Shown: positions 17,380-60,014 of the stretch, in pieces
Layout of the letters: the number at the start of each line of letters is the position of its first letter
How positions within the stretch are numbered: position 1 is the first letter of the stretch
From: a virus
Direction: 5' to 3' (one strand)
Length of the DNA: 64,000 nucleotides
Virus record (IMG/VR): IMGVR_UViG_3300002334_000124
Coordinates: 20,765-84,764 of that record
The notes under the pieces: model-generated
The model's input: the letters and a program-made list of their open reading frames with translations, nothing else
Database searches by the model: none
Told to the model about the DNA's origin: nothing
Translations under genes and position numbers: made by a program

Positions 17380-18189
17380 ATGAGTTTCGCACGTGCTCTA
17401 TTGCAGGATCTCTACATCAAGGAAGCCCTTGTTGAGATCCCTAGACCCGCAGAACCCGAACTGGACGAAGAGGGTAGTCCGGTTTTGGATGACGACGGTA
17501 ATGCCGTCATGGTCGACCAGGACCCGATTGTCTTCTATGCACGGAAGATGAACCCTCTCCAGCAGGAGTCTGCTGCACGTAGGGCGTCAGCGGCTCAGAT
17601 TCATATGCGTCGTCTTGTTTTTCGTCCTGATGATCCCGATTATTCAATCATGGAATCGGCCGTCGACGAAATCGAAGATCTGTCAATGTTTGTTGCCAGA
17701 GTCGAAAGCAATAACGACACCGACAAGATGCAACAAGAGCTCTCGGAAGAAGACGAATGGGCGAAAGACAACTACTACCAGTCGTTGATTGATGCGTGGA
17801 CTCCCAAGATGAAGAGGGACTGGACCGAAAATACCGAAGAGGAACGTGATCCAGAGTCGAAAAGGATCTGGGCCGAGCTGAAGCGTTTCGATGACATTCT
17901 AGAAGACAAGATGAAGTCGCGTCGTACGAATCGTGCAGCTGAAGTTGAAGCTAAGCCCGAAGAAGAGCAACGAAAATTGGTCTTCAAGATCCTCTTGGAA
18001 CAGCAATGCAACGGGGAGTGGATGCGTGTATTCAATCTGTGGCGTCAGATTTATGGCATCGTGGACAAGAACAAGGATCGGGTCTTCGAGGATGAAGACG
18101 ATGCTATGTCGTCACCAATTGAAGCTCAACGGATCTTCCGCCAGGCCCTTGACCGCATCACCCTTAGCGTCACAGATGTAAAATCCTAG
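17380..18189 (+). CDS. Tail assembly chaperone (G-like, pre-frameshift)
   Basis: A 269-residue acidic, helical protein between the major tail protein and the tape measure, equivalent in position to lambda gpG. It would bind the tape measure during tail assembly. The gene ends in the codons GTA AAA TCC TAG, and A-AAA at 18180-18183 allows a -1 slip into the frame of the downstream ORF, which is open from 18168. AAGAGGAG lies before the ATG. Confidence 0.8.
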   Translation: MSFARALLQDLYIKEALVEIPRPAEPELDEEGSPVLDDDGNAVMVDQDPIVFYARKMNPLQQESAARRASAAQIHMRRLVFRPDDPDYSIMESAVDEIEDLSMFVARVESNNDTDKMQQELSEEDEWAKDNYYQSLIDAWTPKMKRDWTENTEEERDPESKRIWAELKRFDDILEDKMKSRRTNRAAEVEAKPEEEQRKLVFKILLEQQCNGEWMRVFNLWRQIYGIVDKNKDRVFEDEDDAMSSPIEAQRIFRQALDRITLSVTDVKS

Positions 18190-50790: not shown

Positions 50791-53352
50791 TTAAGACGCT
50801 TCAGTCATCGCCTTGCGAAGAGCGACGACGCTGGTGGAGTACTCGTCGGGGAGTCGCATGGTTCTACCCATGTAACGTACGGTAACGGGTCCGTCGCCTT
50901 TGCTTTTGAGAATCAGTTCTTTGAGCATCTCGGGTGAGTAGCTATCGGGTAGCCAGACGTGCACGTTGCGGCAGGTAGAGAGAGCACGCTGGAAGAGTTT
51001 GCAGGTCTCAACCAGGATCTTGGTGCCGTTGCGGTCGTCTTCGGGTCTGCCATTCACGTATACGACTGCGTCTTCTTCGATGAACTGGCCGAACAACTTA
51101 GTCTGACGAGGAAATAAGACGCAGCTAATGGTGCCTGTCATGTCTTCGATGTCAAATATCTTCATTAGGTCACCTTTCTTGGTCCACTTGTTGTCGACCT
51201 TGGTGATGATCCCTGCGATGGTGCCCTTGTACCAACTATCTTCTTCCATCTCGTTGAGTTCAGCGATGGTGTACGAGATGTCCTCATCCAGTATTTCCTG
51301 TATGTCAGCGAGGGGATGGCCCGAGATGTATGCGCCTAGGTACTCTTTCTCTAGAGAGAGGAGCTCTGCCTGGTCGTAGTGCAGGTCAGGGATGCCTACC
51401 TTGGCGACCTCGGGTTCGACACTGAACAGCTGCAGGTCACCTAGTTTCTCGATTCGTTTGGAGTCTTTCTTCATCTGCGCCTGGATCTGAGGGTAGATCT
51501 GTACCAGGCCGCGACGTGGATGACCGAGAGCATCGAACGCACCTGATGACACTAGGGCATTGACGACGCTCTTGTTAAGGGCTTTCGCTCCGACACGTTC
51601 GGTGTAGTCAAAGAAGTCTTTGTAGTCCCCTTCGGCTTCGCGTTGCTCCACGATTTCCTGTGCCGGACCTTCACCTACGTCACGGATCCCGAGGAACCCG
51701 CATATCAGCGTAGTGTCATCCAACGGGCGGAAGTTTCGTTCGCTCCGGTTGATCTGTGGCCCCATCACAGTCAGACCCATGCGTTTACATTCGGACAGGT
51801 AGATGCTCAGCTTGTCTTGCTTCCTCTGAGCGCTGGTAAGGAGGGCAGCCATGAACTCTATTGGGTAGTTAGACTTCAGGTAGGCAGCCCAGTACGTAAT
51901 GAGGCCGTAACCCACAGAGTGGGATTTATTGAAGGCATAATTTGAAAACTCAGCTACCGTGCTGAACAGTTTGTCGGCTAGTTCTTGACCAAAGCCGCGA
52001 TCTACCATGCCTCCTACGAACTTGTCTTCTTCTTCCGCCATGGCTTCGGGTAGTTTCTTGGCACAGGTCTTGAGCAGTAGGTATGCCTCACCGAGGGAGT
52101 AGCCAGCGAAGTGCTGTGCTACGTCCATTAGTTGCTCCTGATATATCATCAGACCGTAGGTCTCTTTGAGCATCTTCCTGGCATCTTCGTGGAACACTTC
52201 GATCGATGCGCGTCCATTCTTGCGGTCTGCGTAGTCGATGTGCATGTTCGCAGCGAGAGGACCGGGACGATAGAGCGCCAGCACGGCAGCGATGTGTTCG
52301 AACTCGGTGGGTATTAGATCACGCAACAACGCACGCATCTGTGTGCCTTCGAGCTGGAACACTCCAATGGTTTCGCCTGCCTGGAGTGTCTCGAATGTCT
52401 TCTCGTCGCCTAGAGGCAGAGCGTTCAGGTCGATGTCTACTTGGTGACGTTCGAAGATCAATTTGAGCGCGTCAGAGAGCACGTCTAGAGTGGTTAGTCC
52501 GAGGAAGTCTTCCTTCAGCAGGCCGAGATCTTCGATCGCATGCATCTCGTACTGGGTGGTGATGGGACCATCCGGTTTCTTCTGGATCGGAGTGTAGTTG
52601 ATCAGTGGTTTGGGGGCTATCACCACAGCAGCAGCATGAATGCCATAGGATCGTCGCAGACCCTCTAATCCCATGGCTACATCTACGACTTCACGCACGT
52701 TGGAGTCCGCCGAGTACATGGAGCGTAGAGTCCCGGCTTGGTCGTATCCGTCTTTGTACCTCTCGGATTCGACAAGGCATGCCTTCAGCGGAGTGTCCCG
52801 ACCGAACAACAGAGGGGGCAGGGCTTTGGCGATGAGATCTCCTGTACTGTACGGCTTGTCGAGCACTCGGGCAGCATCTCGTACGGCTTGACGGCTCTTG
52901 ATCGTGCCGAAGGTGATGATCTGTGCCACATGGTCTTCGCCGTAGGTCTTAGCACAGTAGTTGATCATGTGTTCCCGGTAGCGTGAGTCGATGTCGATGT
53001 CGATATCACATAGAGAAGCTGCTTTGCCATACTGAACTGACAACCCCTCAGGGATCTTCATTGGCTTTTCGTTGGTTAGTCCTATAACGTACAATACGGT
53101 TGAGCTTTGCGGATTCGAATATGTGGACTCAGATGTATCGAACATCTCCACGATAGCGTCGACCATGCCTGGCGTCGCGAAGATAGCTGCGGCCTCGTCA
53201 TCTAGCCATTGTTTGTTCGCTGAATCCTTCCTCGGAGAGAAAGTGATCATGTTGCGAAATCTAGAAGAGTTGCTTAGCTCGTTCATATTTCCTATCCAGG
53301 CTAATGTTCGAATCTTTGTATAGCCAGATGATGGTATCTCTATGAGCTTCAA
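50791..53352 (-). CDS. dnaE: DNA polymerase III alpha, C-terminal part (palm to OB domain)
   Basis: About 853 residues in this frame. The catalytic palm begins with CDIDIDIDSRYREHM (plus-strand position near 53000), where DnaE proteins have PDIDIDF. AQIITFGTIKSRQAVRDAARVL, GVFQLEGTQMRALLRDL, LYRPGPL and a C-terminal OB domain (YKGTIAGIITKVDNKW) follow. The first about 80 codons overlap the homing endonuclease ORF and may not all be coding. If translated alone it probably starts at ATG 53280 or 53242; if spliced it continues from the N-terminal part. Replicative polymerase. Confidence 0.8.
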   Translation of the reverse strand: MKLIEIPSSGYTKIRTLAWIGNMNELSNSSRFRNMITFSPRKDSANKQWLDDEAAAIFATPGMVDAIVEMFDTSESTYSNPQSSTVLYVIGLTNEKPMKIPEGLSVQYGKAASLCDIDIDIDSRYREHMINYCAKTYGEDHVAQIITFGTIKSRQAVRDAARVLDKPYSTGDLIAKALPPLLFGRDTPLKACLVESERYKDGYDQAGTLRSMYSADSNVREVVDVAMGLEGLRRSYGIHAAAVVIAPKPLINYTPIQKKPDGPITTQYEMHAIEDLGLLKEDFLGLTTLDVLSDALKLIFERHQVDIDLNALPLGDEKTFETLQAGETIGVFQLEGTQMRALLRDLIPTEFEHIAAVLALYRPGPLAANMHIDYADRKNGRASIEVFHEDARKMLKETYGLMIYQEQLMDVAQHFAGYSLGEAYLLLKTCAKKLPEAMAEEEDKFVGGMVDRGFGQELADKLFSTVAEFSNYAFNKSHSVGYGLITYWAAYLKSNYPIEFMAALLTSAQRKQDKLSIYLSECKRMGLTVMGPQINRSERNFRPLDDTTLICGFLGIRDVGEGPAQEIVEQREAEGDYKDFFDYTERVGAKALNKSVVNALVSSGAFDALGHPRRGLVQIYPQIQAQMKKDSKRIEKLGDLQLFSVEPEVAKVGIPDLHYDQAELLSLEKEYLGAYISGHPLADIQEILDEDISYTIAELNEMEEDSWYKGTIAGIITKVDNKWTKKGDLMKIFDIEDMTGTISCVLFPRQTKLFGQFIEEDAVVYVNGRPEDDRNGTKILVETCKLFQRALSTCRNVHVWLPDSYSPEMLKELILKSKGDGPVTVRYMGRTMRLPDEYSTSVVALRKAMTEAS

Positions 53353-54013
53353 GTGCCCATATGGATTTGTGTTTCATTATGGACCCAGATCGTGGCAGTT
53401 CTTGTTTTAGCCAGGACATCATCGCATGCGTCCCAACCACTTTCAGCCTAAAAGTTTTGCCCGATATGGCCACGCTCCCATCACCGTCGACAAAACCACG
53501 AATGAAATGTCGAATCAATTCTTCGTCGTCTATGTTCGGCGGATTGAGATCGTGTGTTTTGTTTGGATGACAACCATGACTCCAAAGATCTGTGACCATC
53601 TGATGACTGGTTATCGCTAAGCGCGCTACTTTTGCTTTGCCATAAGACGTGACTTGTGAGAATAGGTGAACTGGATATGTAGACGAAAGATCTTTAGCCA
53701 GCCTTACGAGATGTGTTTGGTCTTTGTCGCTGAGGTCGACCTTGAGCACGTATTGACCGTCGTAACAACCTGAGGAACTGTCAGCATAGAGAAAGCCTAG
53801 CCAATAGGCTTTCTTTTCGTTGTTGATTTCGGAGAAGAAGGAGTGATTGACCTCATACCTCCTACTGTTCACCTTGTTTGATCGACATTCGATGCCTTCG
53901 CGCTTGAGTATCCAGTAAACTTGATGGGCCTTGAGCCCAATTTCGTGCCCGACGATCGCGGCTGACTTGCCTTCATCGTACAATTCCAAGATTCTCTGAG
54001 TATGATTTTCCAT
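53261..54013 (-). CDS. LAGLIDADG homing endonuclease within the dnaE locus
   Basis: A 250-residue protein with two LAGLIDADG helices: [12 protein letters not shown] (about residues 70-81) and [16 protein letters not shown] (about 166-181). An N-terminal helix-turn-helix ([20 protein letters not shown]) precedes them. AGGGAGGT lies 9 nt before its ATG, inside the end of the upstream polymerase ORF. All three ORFs are in different frames, so it is not an in-frame intein. It interrupts dnaE at the boundary before the palm motif, as an intron ORF or a free homing gene. Confidence 0.85.
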
Positions 54014-55319
54014 TATACGTGACCTCCCTACTGTTGCTATCGACTTCGAGAGCCGTCAATTCAACTTGGTACTTGAAAACATCGTCCATAGCACCACGGG
54101 CAGGATTCAGGAAACGTTCGAAGAGTAGCCCGTACTTGAGGGGGTCTACGTCTGTGATCCCGAGACAGTAAGCCACGGCGCAGCCACCTGCTGAGCCACG
54201 ACCAGGACCTACCATGATGCCTACGCTTTTGGCGTGACGAATCAGGTCCCATGTGATAAGGAAGTAGCCAGGGAATCCCATCTGACATATGACGTCAAGC
54301 TCATATTCGAGCCGGTTCACAACCTCGCTGGTTAGTGTCCCGTATCTACGTTCTGCACCATCTATGACGAGGGCGCGCAGATAGTCTTCTTCGTCCGCGT
54401 ACCCGTCGGGGATATCGAAGTGTGGCATGTGGACCGTGTCGAAGTCGATGTCGATGTCAGCCCGTTCAGCGATCAGCAACGTATTGTCGCACGCCACTTC
54501 TACTTCACGGAACAGATGCCTCATTTCGTAGGCTGACTTGAGGTAATGCTCGTGTCCGTGGAACTTGAACCGGTTCGGGTCGGACATCTTCGACCCTGTC
54601 TGTACGCAAAGTAACGCAGAATGGGCCATAGAGTCAGATGACAAGGTGTAGTGCGAATCGTTGGTGGCTACTAGGGGCGCGCCTATAGCTTTAGAGATCT
54701 CGATGAGCTGCGGGTTTGTCTGTGTCTGTTCAGGAATCCCGTGGTCTTGTATCTCGATGAAGAAGTTTTCTTTACCAACGATGTCCTGGAACCTGCTGGC
54801 TGCTTCTGTGGCTGCTCCCACGTCGCCGCGTAGCAATTCCTGAAGGACGATGCCCCCCAGACAGCCCGACGTCACTATGAGGCCCTCAGCGTGGTCTGAG
54901 AGGATGTCCCAATCAATGCGAGGCTTACGCCAGAACCCCTTGAGGAACGCATCTGACGACAGCTTCATCAGATTCTGATAGCCCTCGTTGTTGTGGGCGA
55001 TGACAGTTAGATGATGAAATGCCTTCTGACCGTCTTCGGTCTCGCCCCCGAAGTCGTCTATGGTTTTCTTCTTCGGCTTCGGACGGTCGGCCACACTGTG
55101 TCGCGCCATGTAAAGCTCGTTGCCGATGAGAGGTTTGATGCCCTGCTTCTTGCATTCCTTGTAGAAAGGGATCGCCCCGTACATGTTTCCATGGTCGGTG
55201 CAGGCTATGGCAGGTTGCCCATCAGCAACTGCGGCGCTTACCAGTTCCTCAATTTTCGAAGCCCCGTCAAGCATGCTGTACTCGCTATGGACATGACAGT
55301 GCACAAACGAATCAGTCAT
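53973..55319 (-). CDS. dnaE: DNA polymerase III alpha, N-terminal part (PHP to start of palm)
   Basis: About 449 residues from ATG 55319 (55352 is in the upstream paralogue). The PHP domain begins [15 protein letters not shown] with [30 protein letters not shown] and [16 protein letters not shown] are standard DnaE. The last about 35 residues ([16 protein letters not shown]...) are not standard and may be a lineage-specific insertion or run-on into an intron. The stop at 53973 lies 41 nt inside the endonuclease ORF. Start overlaps the last small paralogue, so polymerase and paralogues are one operon. Confidence 0.85.
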
Positions 55320-55650
55320 CAATCGTTGCCTTTTTCCATGGGATGGCATCACACAGATATTCTAGGTAAGGAGGTAGTAGCACAATTGCAGTCATGGGCG
55401 AACTTGAATACTTGCCGAGGGCACGTTCGAGGGAAGCTAATCTTTCACAGACGTCGCAACTATAAAAATCTAGCCACGCCTGTGGAGTGTTGTTTCTGCC
55501 ACACTGGCAACATCTACCGGGAAAATCGGAGGTTGCTAAGACTGCTGCTCGCATTCGGCCATCATGCAGCAAAATGCCATCTTGATATGGAGCCCAAGAA
55601 AGCGAAACCCCCAGGATCACCAGTCCGCGAGGCGTCATTAAGTTGACCAT
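55312..55650 (-). CDS. Two-CxxC small protein, paralogue 7 of 7
   Basis: About 112 residues from ATG 55650, start [15 protein letters not shown]. It has GRCCQCG, YSCDVC and the C-terminal [10 protein letters not shown]. An upstream ATG at 55686 would add 12 residues, but AAAGGAG precedes 55650. It overlaps dnaE by 8 nt. Family described under the first copy (57283-57678). Confidence 0.75.
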
Positions 55651-55958
55651 TGGGTTGTTGCTCCTTTCCATGATGTGTCGCTGCATAGGTATGCTAGATG
55701 TAAAGGTAACTGCACGATCCGGGTCTTCACGAACGGAACGGAACGTGGGCAGACTTCACAACGATATTCATCTGCCCGTCGCTGCATGAAGTTGGCACGA
55801 CCACATCTGCAGCACCTACCGAGAATATCAGGAGTCGCTAAGACTATCGGAAATATTGATGATAGATGTTCAACGTACAGAACTCCATCTTGATACGGAG
55901 CCCAAGATATCGGGACTCCGAGGATTACCAATCCTTCGTACGTTACGAAGCTAACCAT
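55638..55958 (-). CDS. Two-CxxC small protein, paralogue 6 of 7
   Basis: 106 residues from ATG 55958, start MVSFVTYEGLVILGV. Cys pairs GRCCRCG and YRCEVC; C-terminal LPLHLAYLC. Overlaps the copies before and after it by 8 and 13 nt. Confidence 0.75.
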   Translation of the reverse strand: MVSFVTYEGLVILGVPISWAPYQDGVLYVEHLSSIFPIVLATPDILGRCCRCGRANFMQRRADEYRCEVCPRSVPFVKTRIVQLPLHLAYLCSDTSWKGATTQWST

Positions 55959-56319
55959 ATCTACACCGTGCGTCGCAGAGGTACTCCAGATGGGGGGGCA
56001 CAATCACGACTGAAGTTAAAACATTGAGTCCCAGATATGACGAACGCGTCCCAAGGATATTCAGACAGTGTCCACAACAATAGATATTTCTGTACGGCCA
56101 ATCGATAGGGAGACGTTTACACCAATAACCTGTTCCGATAGATCGATGAGTGTCAGATCGACCACATTCGCAACACCTGCTGCGGTGGCTACCACTGGCT
56201 AAGACTATTGACTGACTCTTCGAACCGTCCCACACAATGCCATCTCGGTGTGGGATCGAATCATGTTTGACTGCGTCCAGCATCACCAATCCTTCTCGGA
56301 TCATGAAGTTAACTGTCAT
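55951..56319 (-). CDS. Two-CxxC small protein, paralogue 5 of 7
   Basis: 122 residues, start MTVNFMIREGLVMLDA. Cys pairs SRCCECG and YCCGHC; C-terminal VPPHLEYLCD. Longer linker between the Cys pairs than in copies 6 and 7. Overlaps copy 4 by 11 nt. Confidence 0.75.
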   Translation of the reverse strand: MTVNFMIREGLVMLDAVKHDSIPHRDGIVWDGSKSQSIVLASGSHRSRCCECGRSDTHRSIGTGYWCKRLPIDWPYRNIYCCGHCLNILGTRSSYLGLNVLTSVVIVPPHLEYLCDARCRYG

Positions 56320-56641
56320 CGCAGAGATACTCCAGATAACGAGGCAGCCTCAGAATGGCAGTTAGCACCACGTTGAGTTTGCGATTGACGCCTCTGCCTT
56401 TGCAATTTACACAACAATGAACATTCGCCCATAGCCACTCAATGCTGAACAGGGTGCAGATGCCTCTGTCCTCATACGCAAAGCCATTTCCACTACCACA
56501 GGTGCCGCATTTGCTTCTGTCTCCGGGTCCGACTAGGACTATCTTCTGACGGTGCGGGCCATTGAATAGGATGCCGTCTTCGCATTTCTCGCCTATCCCG
56601 AGTATGACCAATCCTTGCGGGATCATGATGTTAACGGTCAC
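56309..56641 (-). CDS. Two-CxxC small protein, paralogue 4 of 7
   Basis: 110 residues, start MTVNIMIPQGLVILGI. Cys pairs SKCGTCG and HCCVNC; C-terminal LPRYLEYLCD. Overlaps copy 3 by 11 nt. Confidence 0.75.
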   Translation of the reverse strand: MTVNIMIPQGLVILGIGEKCEDGILFNGPHRQKIVLVGPGDRSKCGTCGSGNGFAYEDRGICTLFSIEWLWANVHCCVNCKGRGVNRKLNVVLTAILRLPRYLEYLCDDS

Positions 56642-56915
56642 GACACAACCATTCTAGATGATGCGGCAGTGTCAGGACTGCAGTGGCTGTCGGACATGTT
56701 GGACAATAGTAGGTTTTAAAGCTAAGCTTCATAGGGATCCCGTCCACGGTCTCCCCACATTGACAACATCTACCGGGGTTGTCGGAAGTTGTAAAGACTA
56801 CTGGGACTCGCCAGCCGCTATCTCTGACTAGGACACCGTCGTGATGTAGTGTCTCGTCATCGAATTCCACGTCCAGTATGATCAACCCTTCTGACGTCAT
56901 CAGGTTAATGGTCAT
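56631..56915 (-). CDS. Two-CxxC small protein, paralogue 3 of 7
   Basis: 94 residues, the shortest copy, start MTINLMTSEGLIILDV. Cys pairs GRCCQCG and YYCPTC; C-terminal LPHHLEWLCRD. Starts 8 nt after copy 2. Confidence 0.75.
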   Translation of the reverse strand: MTINLMTSEGLIILDVEFDDETLHHDGVLVRDSGWRVPVVFTTSDNPGRCCQCGETVDGIPMKLSFKTYYCPTCPTATAVLTLPHHLEWLCRDR

Positions 56916-56923
56916 GGCACAGG

Positions 56924-57286
56924 TTAACAGTCACGACATAGGAACTCCAGGTGAGAGGGCAGAGGTAAAAGTGCCGTTAAGATCATGTCGTACTGTGGTC
57001 CTGACTTACATCCTACACAACGGTAAGTGTCAGCCCATGGCCAGTCGATGGGGAATATCGAGCAAAGCCCTCCAGGATCCACTGCTGGGGCGCTTTCCTT
57101 GCCACAACCCCAACACCTACCCTTGTAGCAGCGGGTTGTTAGAACTATTGGTTGAACCCGGTTGGCGTTCATCAGGATGCCATCCTCGTATCCTTTTAAG
57201 CGAGCGGTGATTTTGGTGTAAACTCCGCCGCGATATACGCCGCCGAGTATCACCAATCCTTTTGGGATCATCAGGTTGACAGTCAT
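56924..57286 (-). CDS. Two-CxxC small protein, paralogue 2 of 7
   Basis: 120 residues from ATG 57286 in an ATGA overlap with copy 1, start MTVNLMIPKGLVILGG. Cys pairs GRCWGCG and YRCVGC; C-terminal LPSHLEFLCRD. A longer reading from 57328 runs inside copy 1 and is rejected. Confidence 0.75.
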   Translation of the reverse strand: MTVNLMIPKGLVILGGVYRGGVYTKITARLKGYEDGILMNANRVQPIVLTTRCYKGRCWGCGKESAPAVDPGGLCSIFPIDWPWADTYRCVGCKSGPQYDMILTALLPLPSHLEFLCRDC

Positions 57287-57678
57287 ATGGGACTCAAATT
57301 GACTGTCCATGATTTGCCACCGCTCCATGGCTCACTGGTGCACAGATACTCCAGGCAAGGAGGGAGGAAGATCAGCAGAGTTGTTTTGGTCCCACTAATG
57401 GGAAGACCCGGACAGTCTATACAGGTATGAGTACCGACGTAGGCGTAGTAGGCGCCGGTCGAGTATTTCTGTTTCTTGTTGTGCGAACCACATCTGGAAC
57501 ACCTACCCCAGTATCGTGACGTTGCCAATACTATTGATCGCATTATCTGATAACGATGATTGAACAGGATGCCATCCTGGTACGGATCCCAATACGATAG
57601 GTCCGACTTTTCCGCGGCACATCGAGCCGATACGCCCAGTAGAACTAGACCTTCTTTGACGGGTATGTTGACAGTCAT
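57283..57678 (-). CDS. Two-CxxC small protein, paralogue 1 of 7 (first in operon)
   Basis: 131 residues, start MTVNIPVKEGLVLLGV behind AGGAGG (5-6 nt spacing), the only copy with a strong ribosome-binding site. Family pattern, seen in all seven copies: a start like MTVNLMIxxGLVILGV, then DGIL, IVLAT, the first Cys pair in GRCxxCG, a second CxxC (here HTCIDC) and a C-terminal LPxxLEYLC. It looks like a small two-pair zinc ribbon with a conserved hydrophobic end. I recognise no family and do not assign a function. It starts the operon that leads into dnaE. Confidence 0.75.
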   Translation of the reverse strand: MTVNIPVKEGLVLLGVSARCAAEKSDLSYWDPYQDGILFNHRYQIMRSIVLATSRYWGRCSRCGSHNKKQKYSTGAYYAYVGTHTCIDCPGLPISGTKTTLLIFLPPCLEYLCTSEPWSGGKSWTVNLSPI

Positions 57679-57741: not shown

Positions 57742-57750
57742 GCTGAAAGA

Positions 57751-58281
57751 CTTAGGAGAGGCGCGATAGGTATGGGTTTCGTGGTGAGCGTGGCCCCTCC
57801 CTTAGAATCGAAGTTGGCTGGCGCGTGAGTTTTGGGTTCCGACGCTCTTTTGGCCAGACCAACTTCAGAGTTGTCAAGAAATAACCGGAGTGCGGCGTCA
57901 GTTTCATGGGTTTCGCACCTGTCATGGCTGCACCCCGGTAGAGAATGGAACTGGCTGGCGATGCTCGTTTGGGTTCAGACATGTCCTTGGCCAACCAGTT
58001 CCAAGAGGTAACCGAGCGTGACGAAGTATTAAGGGGTTTCGCAGCATCCTGGTCACGCTCGGTAGAAATGAGGATTGCCCTGGTTGACGGTGACACTCTG
58101 GGTTTCGCGAAGTTCAAGATCAACCAGGGTAGAAAAAGTAGGGAAGGTAGAAAGGGTAGAAAATGATCCCCTACCGCGGACTCACAGTGGGTTTCGTCGT
58201 TACTCTGGCAGGTAGGGGATCAGAGAATGGTGGACTGGCGGCTTTTCCGTGGGTTTCGCGTCATGGTTGGCCAGCCCGCCA
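57751..58281 (-). ncRNA. TIGR-like guide array, 8 units (block A)
   Basis: Eight units, each (plus-strand view) left arm, spacer A of 9 nt, loop of 9 nt (TGGGTTTCG), spacer B of 9 nt, right arm pairing with the left. Units: U1 57751-57805 (A CGATAGGTA, B TGGTGAGCG), U2 57810-57866 (CGTGAGTTT, ACGCTCTTT; loop TGGGTTCCG), U3 57884-57939 (TCAGTTTCA, CACCTGTCA), U4 57947-58002 (ATGCTCGTT, ACATGTCCT; loop TGGGTTCAG), U5 58011-58063 (AAGTATTAA, CAGCATCCT; loop GGGGTTTCG), U6 58078-58129 (GTGACACTC, CGAAGTTCA), U7 58166-58220 (GACTCACAG, TCGTTACTC), U8 58228-58281 (GCTTTTCCG, CGTCATGGT). Edges are mostly GGCG and TGGCC, giving a 36-nt core. Linkers are A-rich. Transcription is probably from the minus strand with the neighbouring genes, so the RNA would read the complement. 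No protein gene is supported in this stretch. Confidence 0.85.
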
Positions 58282-58290
58282 GAATAAAAC

Positions 58291-59058
58291 CTATGCGGAG
58301 TCCACAGCGACCCACAGGTCTTTGAGTAGGTTCTTCTTGATGATCCTGAGACCATGATTGTTTACGTGTCCCGGTTTCCAATCTGGATGGGCCAGAGCAG
58401 CTGACGTTTTGGCGTCGTAGTAGTAGTCGCAGTATCTTTCGTTCTTCAACCTCACCATGTTTCCAGCGATGACATGCAGGATTATTCCTGCGTTCTGGTT
58501 GCCTAAAGCCTGAGCGGCTTCCTGTGTCATGCCCGTTTTCCGTCTTTCTTGGCTACCTACACCACAGTACTGCCAAAGCATGCTCACTGAACGGGGTACG
58601 GTTTTGCCTGACACGAGGATCTGTTCAGGCGTATCGTCCCGCTTCTTTTTTCCCGTGGGGTCGTCTTCATGCCACATCGGAGTCTTCCAGCATGGGTGAC
58701 CGATCGCGCCGAGCAAACGGCCGAACGACTTATCGTTCAGTCCACGTGTCTCTTCCATGAATCCGACGAAGACGGGCGGGAGTACTTTGATTTGCGTTCC
58801 AAGTAGCGTTACAAGTTTGGTTTCCTGGTCAAGCATCACCGCGGCGTACTCGAACACTTCAGGGGCTGCGCTCACATTGCGAACAATCAGCTTGTCTTCT
58901 TTACCTTCGCGGATCTTCCTGCTGATGTTTGCCTTGCCTTCGATCCCGAGTCTGTTGTCTAAGGAGATCCGGTACTTCATTGAGCTTTCAAGGAGCAAAG
59001 AGGTCATGGCGACCAGTTTGAAATCTCCGAGTACTTTCTTGGTTGGCTTCTTGGCCAT
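58291..59058 (-). CDS. Tas-like RNA-binding protein: IS110 C-terminal/Nop-type domain without nuclease
   Basis: A 255-residue basic protein. Residues about 60-100 look like a helical coiled segment. Residues 101-121 (MEETRGLNDKSFGRLLGAIG) resemble the helix-hairpin-helix of Transposase_20. LWQYCGVG (161-168), the GNQN turn (186-189) and the Tyr-rich YCDYYYDAK (209-217) follow in the order of the IS110-family C-terminal domain, whose fold is related to Nop of box C/D snoRNPs. The RuvC-like DEDD domain of IS110 is absent. No ribosome-binding site; the array loop motif in complement (CGAAACCCA) abuts the start codon. With the repeat arrays around it, the best reading is a nuclease-less Tas protein; a domesticated IS110 fragment is the alternative. 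Confidence 0.7.
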   Translation of the reverse strand: MAKKPTKKVLGDFKLVAMTSLLLESSMKYRISLDNRLGIEGKANISRKIREGKEDKLIVRNVSAAPEVFEYAAVMLDQETKLVTLLGTQIKVLPPVFVGFMEETRGLNDKSFGRLLGAIGHPCWKTPMWHEDDPTGKKKRDDTPEQILVSGKTVPRSVSMLWQYCGVGSQERRKTGMTQEAAQALGNQNAGIILHVIAGNMVRLKNERYCDYYYDAKTSAALAHPDWKPGHVNNHGLRIIKKNLLKDLWVAVDSA

Positions 59059-59067
59059 TGGGTTTCG
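59059..59067 (-). promoter_or_regulatory. Array loop motif in the leader of the Tas-like gene
   Basis: An exact TGGGTTTCG (plus strand) directly before the start codon, with no paired arms. Could be a binding site for the protein on its own message. The leaders of this gene and the 59823 gene share CACCAACTA and AAAGC near the start codon. Confidence 0.45.
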
Positions 59068-59100
59068 CTTTCTATTTGGGTTTAGTTGGTGTTATTGAAC

Positions 59101-59240
59101 TTAGAGGGCTGGCGCAGCGGCTCTGGGTTTCGAAGCTGTAATGGCCAGCCCTCTAGAAATTAACCCCTGACTGCCAGTCAAGGGAAAGTGCGGGCTGGCG
59201 CCTATTCTGTGGGTTTCGAGCCATTCCTGGCCAGCCCGCT
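59101..59240 (-). ncRNA. TIGR-like guide array, 2 units (block B)
   Basis: U9 59101-59156 (plus-strand spacers A CAGCGGCTC, B AAGCTGTAA) and U10 59188-59240 (A CCTATTCTG, B AGCCATTCC), both with the loop TGGGTTTCG and edges GGCTGGCG/TGGCCAGCC. Between them, 59164-59184 is an arm pair (CCCCTGACTG with CAGTCAAGGG, almost no loop) that looks like a unit from which the core has been lost. Confidence 0.85.
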
Positions 59241-59250
59241 GAGATTGAAC

Positions 59251-59823
59251 TTAGGTGATGTCTGGGACTTCGTATTCGGGACGCTTCTTCAGCACCGCCC
59301 TCAATGACTTGACACCTTCGGCGTTCATGTCGTCGATGGCTTGCTGATGTCCGCTGATCGTCTTCTCGATACCGTTGACATCCTTTTGCAAGAACTTGAT
59401 GCGAGCCTCATGCTGTTCGGGGGTGGCGTCCAGATAGTTGGCACGATGAGCGTTACCTTCATCATCGATCCAGGGGAACTCGACATGAGATAGGTACGCC
59501 CACGGATTCCGCTGCTCTACGACTGTGCCTCCGCCTTTCTTTCCCTTCTTGCCTTTGGCTGCCCTCTGTTGGGTGTCGATGTCCTTGCGTTCCTCGAATA
59601 CAGCCGCGACTATAGGCTGGGTTACACTGTTCCTGACCATGGGGACCACAGCTCCAATGATGCTCGGGATGACAGAGTCTTCTGCCCCGTCGCTCCTGAT
59701 GGAGTTCCAGGCCATCAAACCGTGGTCGTAGTTGGAGAACGTTGGGTTGTTGATCAACGAATCTTTGATGTAGTCCCGATAGGACTTCGTCGCGACCTTG
59801 GTCTTCTTGGTTTTCACTGCCAT
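59251..59823 (-). CDS. Unknown array-associated protein
   Basis: 190 residues from ATG 59823 (AAGGAAAG upstream); a reading from 59970 would cross array units and is rejected. Lys-rich N-terminus (MAVKTKKTKVATKSYRDY), a helical segment with IIGAVVPMVRN, a low-complexity AAKGKKGKKGGG linker near residue 95, and a C-terminal coiled helix. No nuclease or helicase motif. It lies between array blocks B and C and upstream of the Tas-like gene in one transcript, so a partner role is plausible but unproven. Confidence 0.65.
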   Translation of the reverse strand: MAVKTKKTKVATKSYRDYIKDSLINNPTFSNYDHGLMAWNSIRSDGAEDSVIPSIIGAVVPMVRNSVTQPIVAAVFEERKDIDTQQRAAKGKKGKKGGGTVVEQRNPWAYLSHVEFPWIDDEGNAHRANYLDATPEQHEARIKFLQKDVNGIEKTISGHQQAIDDMNAEGVKSLRAVLKKRPEYEVPDIT

Positions 59824-59854
59824 GTTTGCTTTCCTTGTAGTTGGTGGAGAAAGG

Positions 59855-59974
59855 TTGATCGGGCTGACGGGCGCTTGATGGGTTTCGCGTGCAGGATGGC
59901 CAGCCCGATCAAGGGTGTTTCCCTGGCTGGCGAAGCGTAATTGGGTTTCGTTCCGTTTCTGGACAGCCAAGGAA
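59855..59974 (-). ncRNA. TIGR-like guide array, 2 units (block C)
   Basis: U11 59855-59912 (plus-strand A GGCGCTTGA, B CGTGCAGGA) and U12 59919-59974 (A AAGCGTAAT, B TTCCGTTTC), both with the loop TGGGTTTCG. First part of the transcript from the promoter at 60015-60043. Confidence 0.85.
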
Positions 59975-60014
59975 AGAATGTTGACATCCCCTCGAATCTC
60001 GGGAGTCTAGAAAG

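Follow-up and report, generated by a model that had tools for sequence, protein, structure and literature searches.

The window examined here is a stretch of 64,000 nucleotides that covers positions 20765-84764 of the 84,764-base virus record IMGVR_UViG_3300002334_000124. At window positions 57749-59975, it carries 12 dual-spacer units around the gene of a 255-residue, nuclease-less Nop-domain protein, TasA, and this locus is a diverged member of the described stem-loop class of TIGR-TasA systems. A preliminary description of this DNA had proposed a TIGR-Tas-like RNA-guided system of 12 units in one shared design around a protein gene, with a loop that is exact in nine of the 12 units and 24 spacers that all differ, and these observations were borne out. 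Its plus-strand reading of the units had to be corrected, as the RNA-like strand is the minus strand, which is also that of tasA. The GGCG and TGGCC taken there as edges are really inner stem ends and boxes. On the minus strand, the order is U1-U2, a 190-residue gene, U3-U4, tasA (58291-59058) and U5-U12, and the units follow the pattern stem-CCA-N9-CGAAACCCA-N9-CG-stem.

All features of the array are on the minus strand, and all units are intergenic. U1 (59918-59975; spacers GAAACGGAA and ATTACGCTT) and U2 (59855-59912; TCCTGCACG and TCAAGCGCC; fold z-score -4.58) precede the 190-residue gene (59251-59823), probably a diverged homologue of the PHROG_4604 family and the partner gene directly upstream of tasA. 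U3 (59190-59239; GGAATGGCT and CAGAATAGG) and U4 (59101-59156; TTACAGCTT and GAGCCGCTG; z -4.65) lie between the two genes. Downstream of tasA follow U5 (58228-58281; ACCATGACG and CGGAAAAGC), U6 (58164-58222; GAGTAACGA and CTGTGAGTC; z -4.37), U7 with a degenerate first box C (58078-58129; TGAACTTCG and GAGTGTCAC) and U8 (58011-58063; z -4.70), which combines an 8-nucleotide spacer, GGATGCTG, with TTAATACTT around the loop CGAAACCCC. The last four are U9 (57946-58003; AGGACATGT and AACGAGCAT; loop CTGAACCCA; z -4.51), U10 (57884-57939; TGACAGGTG and TGAAACTGA), U11 with a bulged stem (57809-57866; AAAGAGCGT and AAACTCACG; loop CGGAACCCA) and U12 with an imperfect stem (57749-57806; CGCTCACCA and TACCTATCG). 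The loops of U8, U9 and U11 differ from CGAAACCCA by one or two bases. The entire 84.7-kb record has ten exact copies of CGAAACCCA, on the minus strand only: nine are within units and the tenth adjoins the tasA start codon. A search of both strands of the record with the strict unit grammar returned nine places in the array and one elsewhere. The tenth loop copy belongs to a stemless, degenerate half unit, CTAAACCCA-AATAGAAAG-CGAAACCCA-ATG (59059-59091; z 0.10), which is possibly an autoregulatory element or a remnant. TasA could bind its own mRNA there and repress it.

Every unit lies within its own inverted repeat; these repeats are mostly 10-14 bp long, and their sequence varies among the units. 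The arms of these stems covary: a unit's own arms form 8.6 of 10 Watson-Crick pairs on average compared to 5.7 for swapped arms, and pairing as good was reached in none of 20,000 permutations. Five window units were folded as RNA, with z-scores between -4.4 and -4.7. In scanned collections of viral and bacterial genomes, 109 loci with a TasA core were found, 88 after duplicate removal, and across the 109 loci 713 units have the orientation of tasA while 44 are reversed. The box D motifs of loop and edge also covary across loci (CG/CG 459, CG/TG 29, TG/CG 23, TG/TG 21; odds ratio 14, P 1.6e-12, a value that is not exact as the units are related). The units have no Rfam match at E <= 1. In two viral contigs (L105:2967-3476 and L102:1633-1934; locus numbers are our own), the stems are 24 bp long and nearly constant between units, whereas stems elsewhere are variable.

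According to Faure 2025 (PMC12045711), dual-repeat TIGR arrays give rise to 36-nt RNAs, while two other clades have stem-loop arrays. In the latter, two spacers of 8-12 nt lie between the box motifs C and D, which read CCA and UG in TasR, palindromic variable stems replace the edge repeats, and the linker may be constant in length and sequence. The box motifs diverge between systems, yet covary between loop and edge. For a TasA locus with 13 stem-loops on a Peromyscus leucopus gut contig, processed single stem-loop RNAs were obtained (PMC12045711, Fig. 7). Since the stems in the window vary among the units and their arms covary, the array belongs to this stem-loop class and not to the 36-nt dual-repeat class. 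The 36-nt core and the RNAs of about 36 nt that had been proposed at the outset do not hold: the units are irregularly spaced, so that the array has no 36-nt period, and each sits in a long stem of its own. Processed RNAs are therefore expected as whole stem-loops and not as 36-mers.

The 255-residue protein on its own has no match in Pfam and no sequence match in the PDB, but it matches PHROG_4285, labelled transposase, with an E-value of 1.6e-21. A profile built from 55 homologues matched TasR (9mty, E 1.7e-28) and TasH (21kl, E 1.7e-18) in the PDB. The AlphaFold2 model consists of one Nop-type fold, with a predicted local distance difference test score (pLDDT) of 90.5 and a predicted template modelling score (pTM) of 0.86. 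The comparison with Tas and IS110 folds suggested in the preliminary description was run with Foldseek, which ranked TasR first (E 8.9e-6, template modelling score 0.62), followed by TasH and the IS621 recombinase, each with probability 1.00. Pfam, the model and Foldseek gave no nuclease domain within the 255 residues, including the N-terminal DEDD RuvC domain, as that description had also stated. As it has no nuclease domain, the protein is, judged by its profile and predicted fold, TasA. Together with the 9-nt spacers flanked by box C and box D, this upholds the proposed TIGR-Tas system with a nuclease-less Nop protein.

The closest described system is the stem-loop TIGR-TasA locus from P. 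leucopus. Common to both are a solo Nop protein, subarrays, two spacers between box C and box D, and palindromic variable stems. Unlike that locus as described, the window has CG as box D and a PHROG_4604-type partner preceding tasA, and relatives of the window locus hold guide units inside the tasA reading frame. With the dual-repeat TIGR-TasR and TIGR-TasH systems (9mty; 21kl, 9w04), the locus shares the Nop fold, dual 9-nt spacers, a short loop repeat ending in CCA and the pairing of box C and box D between loop and edge, whereas it has neither RuvC nor HNH and carries long stems in place of their short edge repeats. TasA-TasParB operons (Faure 2025, fig. S14; PMC12045711) likewise have a second gene in one operon with tasA, but the PHROG_4604-type partner has no ParB family match in Pfam and its predicted fold has no match in the PDB. 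In the tree, the window TasA is on the longest branch.

When viral contigs were searched with just the TasA of the window, no relatives came up; these were reached via the protein of an A1 phage and then via alignments. With tblastn, TasA was detected in 78 phage records, 75 of which are Mycobacterium phages. The inspected Mycobacterium phages with tasA are of the subcluster A1 type. In PMC11984116, the phage Sorpresa is described as an A1 phage. Five units precede tasA in all 12 inspected A1-type phages, for example between gp75, the partner, and gp74 in BPBiebs31, and the annotations of the A1 tasA genes, such as NC_042327.1 gp74 (L002:4666-5711), read transposase, DNA-binding protein or hypothetical protein. 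Many further phages of cluster A, fetched by way of their exonuclease gene, are absent from the tasA matches. At least two units lie beside tasA in 83 of the 88 non-duplicate loci. Almost all named hosts belong to the actinobacteria (Mycobacterium, Gordonia, Rhodococcus, Arthrobacter, Parafrankia, Actinomadura and Nocardia), with Arthrobacter isolates probably among the carriers. One Microcystis phage has a distant homologue, beside which no array was recognised, and no homologue of the TasA of locus L027 was found in plasmids.

Among 11 A1 phages compared, tasA is 97 % identical and the stems are 84 % identical, while the spacers are only about 40 % identical. Identical spacers in distant relatives, which the preliminary description had named as an argument for fixed structural elements, were not seen, as 446 of the 447 guide units outside A1 are unique. 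Because the spacers diversify between relatives in this way, the units behave as guides and unlike fixed structural elements. In the fourth unit of three A1 phages (L013, L015 and L016), spacer A, TATCTCCGG, is common while spacer B is different, which suggests recombination within units at the loop.

A gene of the PHROG_4604 family lies directly upstream of tasA in 73 of the 88 non-duplicate loci, and its product seems to be a standing partner of TasA. These partner proteins are about 150-190 residues long, match each other pairwise with E-values of 1e-4 to 1e-26 and have no Pfam family. The AlphaFold2 model of the partner is helical with a small beta hairpin and locally confident (pLDDT 92.7, pTM 0.51). 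For the window, the 190-residue gene is not significantly matched directly by the hidden Markov model of the partner family or by profile comparison. By tblastn, however, the C-terminal part of this gene gave matches within the partner genes of two loci, L104 (E 2e-4) and L111 (E 3.5e-4), whose TasA proteins are close to that of the window in the tree. Since it is linked through these intermediates, it is probably a diverged PHROG_4604 homologue, and the window thus probably has the partner as well.

The tasA reading frame itself contains guide units in at least 28 of 75 loci; there, they occupy an insert in the Nop domain between the conserved stretches 'ELWAYCG' and 'APKRxRG'. Such intragenic stem-loops were found in the Gordonia phages Spooky and BENtherdunthat, in Parafrankia, in Actinomadura and in many viral contigs (for example L033:3560-4816, L034:3557-4831, L025:10363-10418 and L026:4275-4330). 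The median length of the TasA core is 807 nt where the insert is present, compared to 700 nt where it is absent. Of 51 intragenic units, 46 share the codon phase at which spacer A starts, and shared ancestry is part of the reason. On the tree, the arrangement requires at least 12 gains or losses. Furthermore, the stretch of units between the partner and the TasA core is free of stop codons in the tasA frame in 34 of 52 loci outside A1, compared to 12 and 2 in the other frames. For this reason, these units probably encode an N-terminal extension of TasA that begins at putative upstream start sites.

By analogy with the P. leucopus locus (PMC12045711), the array and the two genes, partner and tasA, would be transcribed together, and the array RNA would be processed to individual stem-loops, each about 50-60 nt long. 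As in the structures of TasR and TasH, a TasA dimer may then hold the RNA by a pair of equivalent C/D elements, both CG...CCA, of which one lies in the loop and the other at the stem foot. The placement of these motifs and the covariation of loop and edge were observed here. The target would consist of two adjacent halves of 9 bp, one paired with each 9-nt spacer and the two on opposite strands, and the DNA would be opened and bent by this pairing. The partner may be a second subunit or a regulator of the complex, a putative role that builds on its observed association. Membership in stem-loop TIGR-TasA, together with this general mode of action of processing, dimer grip and two-strand pairing, appears highly probable, with the steps themselves modelled on TasR, TasH and the tested stem-loop locus. 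The most likely function is RNA-guided DNA binding without cleavage, directed against competing elements. Specifically, a complex without a nuclease would act by occupancy, most likely by keeping competing mobile elements from being transcribed or replicated, for which we see roughly an even chance.

The target scans covered four pairing geometries with gaps of 0-2 and up to 2-3 mismatches, and swapped guides or geometry controls served for comparison. There was no excess of targets over controls in the own genome, in 0.35 Mb, in 1.6 Mb of array loci, in 0.8 Mb or in 2.1 Mb of cluster-A phage DNA. The searches for mismatched sites covered a few Mb, and M. smegmatis was not among the genomes searched. 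In the phage collection, only exact contiguous 18-nt matches could be assessed because a control 18-mer was found at an E-value of 9. A pattern scan of IMG/VR with one A1 guide returned six matches, all in metagenome contigs and at about the number expected by chance. As no target was found, a role in inter-phage competition is plausible but unproven. The discoverers of TIGR systems note that targets are hard to identify because most of these systems are found in metagenomes (PMC12045711).

Several observations weigh against a guide complex that occupies DNA of competing elements. The paired matches of spacers A and B in phage DNA that the preliminary description had asked for were sought with 23 guides in 50,697 phage records, none of which held an exact contiguous 18-nt target. 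Targets with at most one mismatch were not above the control level in the 1.6 Mb of array loci or the 2.1 Mb of cluster-A phage DNA. In addition, spacer A is kept while spacer B changes in a few A1 units (10 of 275 comparisons), which is not obviously predicted by targeting with two halves. The box D of the window is CG in both loop and edge, whereas it is UG in characterised TasR arrays.

The alternative that survives best retains the RNA-guided TasA complex and assigns it to the regulation of own or host genes or to the bending of DNA for an integrase. Both roles, integrase aid and gene regulation, were raised by Faure 2025 (PMC12045711) and suit a TasA without a nuclease, and the guide of U5 has a site with two mismatches in its own genome, at window position 17496. 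This site is, however, at about chance level (0.04-0.13 expected for 12 guides by our own estimate), self-targets were not enriched in the scans of 0.35, 1.6 and 2.1 Mb, and, unlike guides for fixed self-sites, the spacers of A1 phages change even though these phages share a host and are nearly identical. Such a role is therefore unlikely, although it is the main competitor to the blocking of mobile elements. Less probable still is a complex that targets RNA in the manner of a small nucleolar ribonucleoprotein, in which the 9-nt spacers would each serve as antisense guides for mRNA. The kinship of Nop proteins and box C/D RNAs would fit, as would the units in which spacer A is kept while B changes, and targets of stem-loop TasA were untested in the main text of Faure 2025 (PMC12045711). 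Against this, characterised Tas proteins bind DNA, TasR is inactive on RNA (PMC12045711), and the fold is nearest to TasR and TasH. A box C/D small nucleolar ribonucleoprotein of a described family was rejected on this fold and on the missing Rfam match.

The remaining two explanations dispense with a TIGR system. Terminators, protein-binding palindromes or elements like repetitive extragenic palindromes, that is, structural DNA or RNA elements in place of guides, would account for perfect palindromes that are all intergenic in the window. They would not account for the constant 9-9-9 spacing with variable stems and spacers, the strand bias, the covariation of loop and edge or the Tas-type protein that adjoins nearly every array, nor is there an Rfam match, which makes this reading very improbable. 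For IS110 and IS621 recombinases, the bridge RNA has guide loops with two half-guides for opposite strands. The idea of an IS110-type transposon or its relic with loops like those of a bridge RNA can draw on the transposase label of PHROG_4285 and on a Nop-like RNA-binding fold shared with the IS621 recombinase, the next match after TasR and TasH, but it is the least credible, as the protein has 255 residues without a RuvC (DEDD) or other recombinase domain, many small guides take the place of one bridge RNA, and the layout of partner, tasA and array recurs in many different phages. No ends of a mobile element were noticed either, though no search was aimed at them. Both readings were rejected on strand bias, unit grammar and missing domains.

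Two further features of the window lie outside the TIGR-TasA locus. Adjoining its guide array at 55312-57678 are seven overlapping tandem paralogous open reading frames of about 95-134 residues, which start with MTVN-MI--GLVILG and contain CxxCG and C--C pairs. Those of them that were tested matched no Pfam or PHROG family, and no homologues were found in the fetched loci. At 50791-55352, DNA polymerase III alpha is divided between two open reading frames that match the adjacent parts 35-445 and 441-1135 of PHROG_405, and between them lies a 250-residue open reading frame with a weak LAGLIDADG match. The split may reflect an intron or intein with a homing endonuclease, or frameshifts.

The natural targets and the purpose of TIGR systems, above all of those with a nuclease-less TasA, are the matter addressed by these results. 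Within the described class, the locus and its relatives stand out by the partner gene, by CG as box D, by their occurrence in cultured phages and by the intragenic guides. The partner gene, the A1-type phage loci with their diverging spacers and the intragenic guides do not appear in the main text of Faure 2025, supplements aside, and our literature search found no paper linking the partner or the intragenic guides to TIGR. The results thus point to a partner protein without a published TIGR link in the literature found. They also identify carriers of stem-loop TIGR-TasA among cultured phages, namely about 75 Mycobacterium phages that share one laboratory host and isolates of Gordonia, Rhodococcus and probably Arthrobacter phages, which makes direct tests by deletion, RNA sequencing and competition possible. 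As a tentative overall picture, to which we give somewhat less than an even chance, a two-gene RNA-guided system of a PHROG_4604 protein and TasA would reside in phages and prophages mostly of actinobacteria, with hypervariable guides both between the genes and inside the effector frame. One transcript would serve as mRNA and guide precursor, the maturation of guides would compete with the synthesis of the effector, and the guides would turn over between sibling phages as weapons against mobile elements. If true, a single reading frame would serve two purposes, coding for the effector and holding its guides, which would be unusual.

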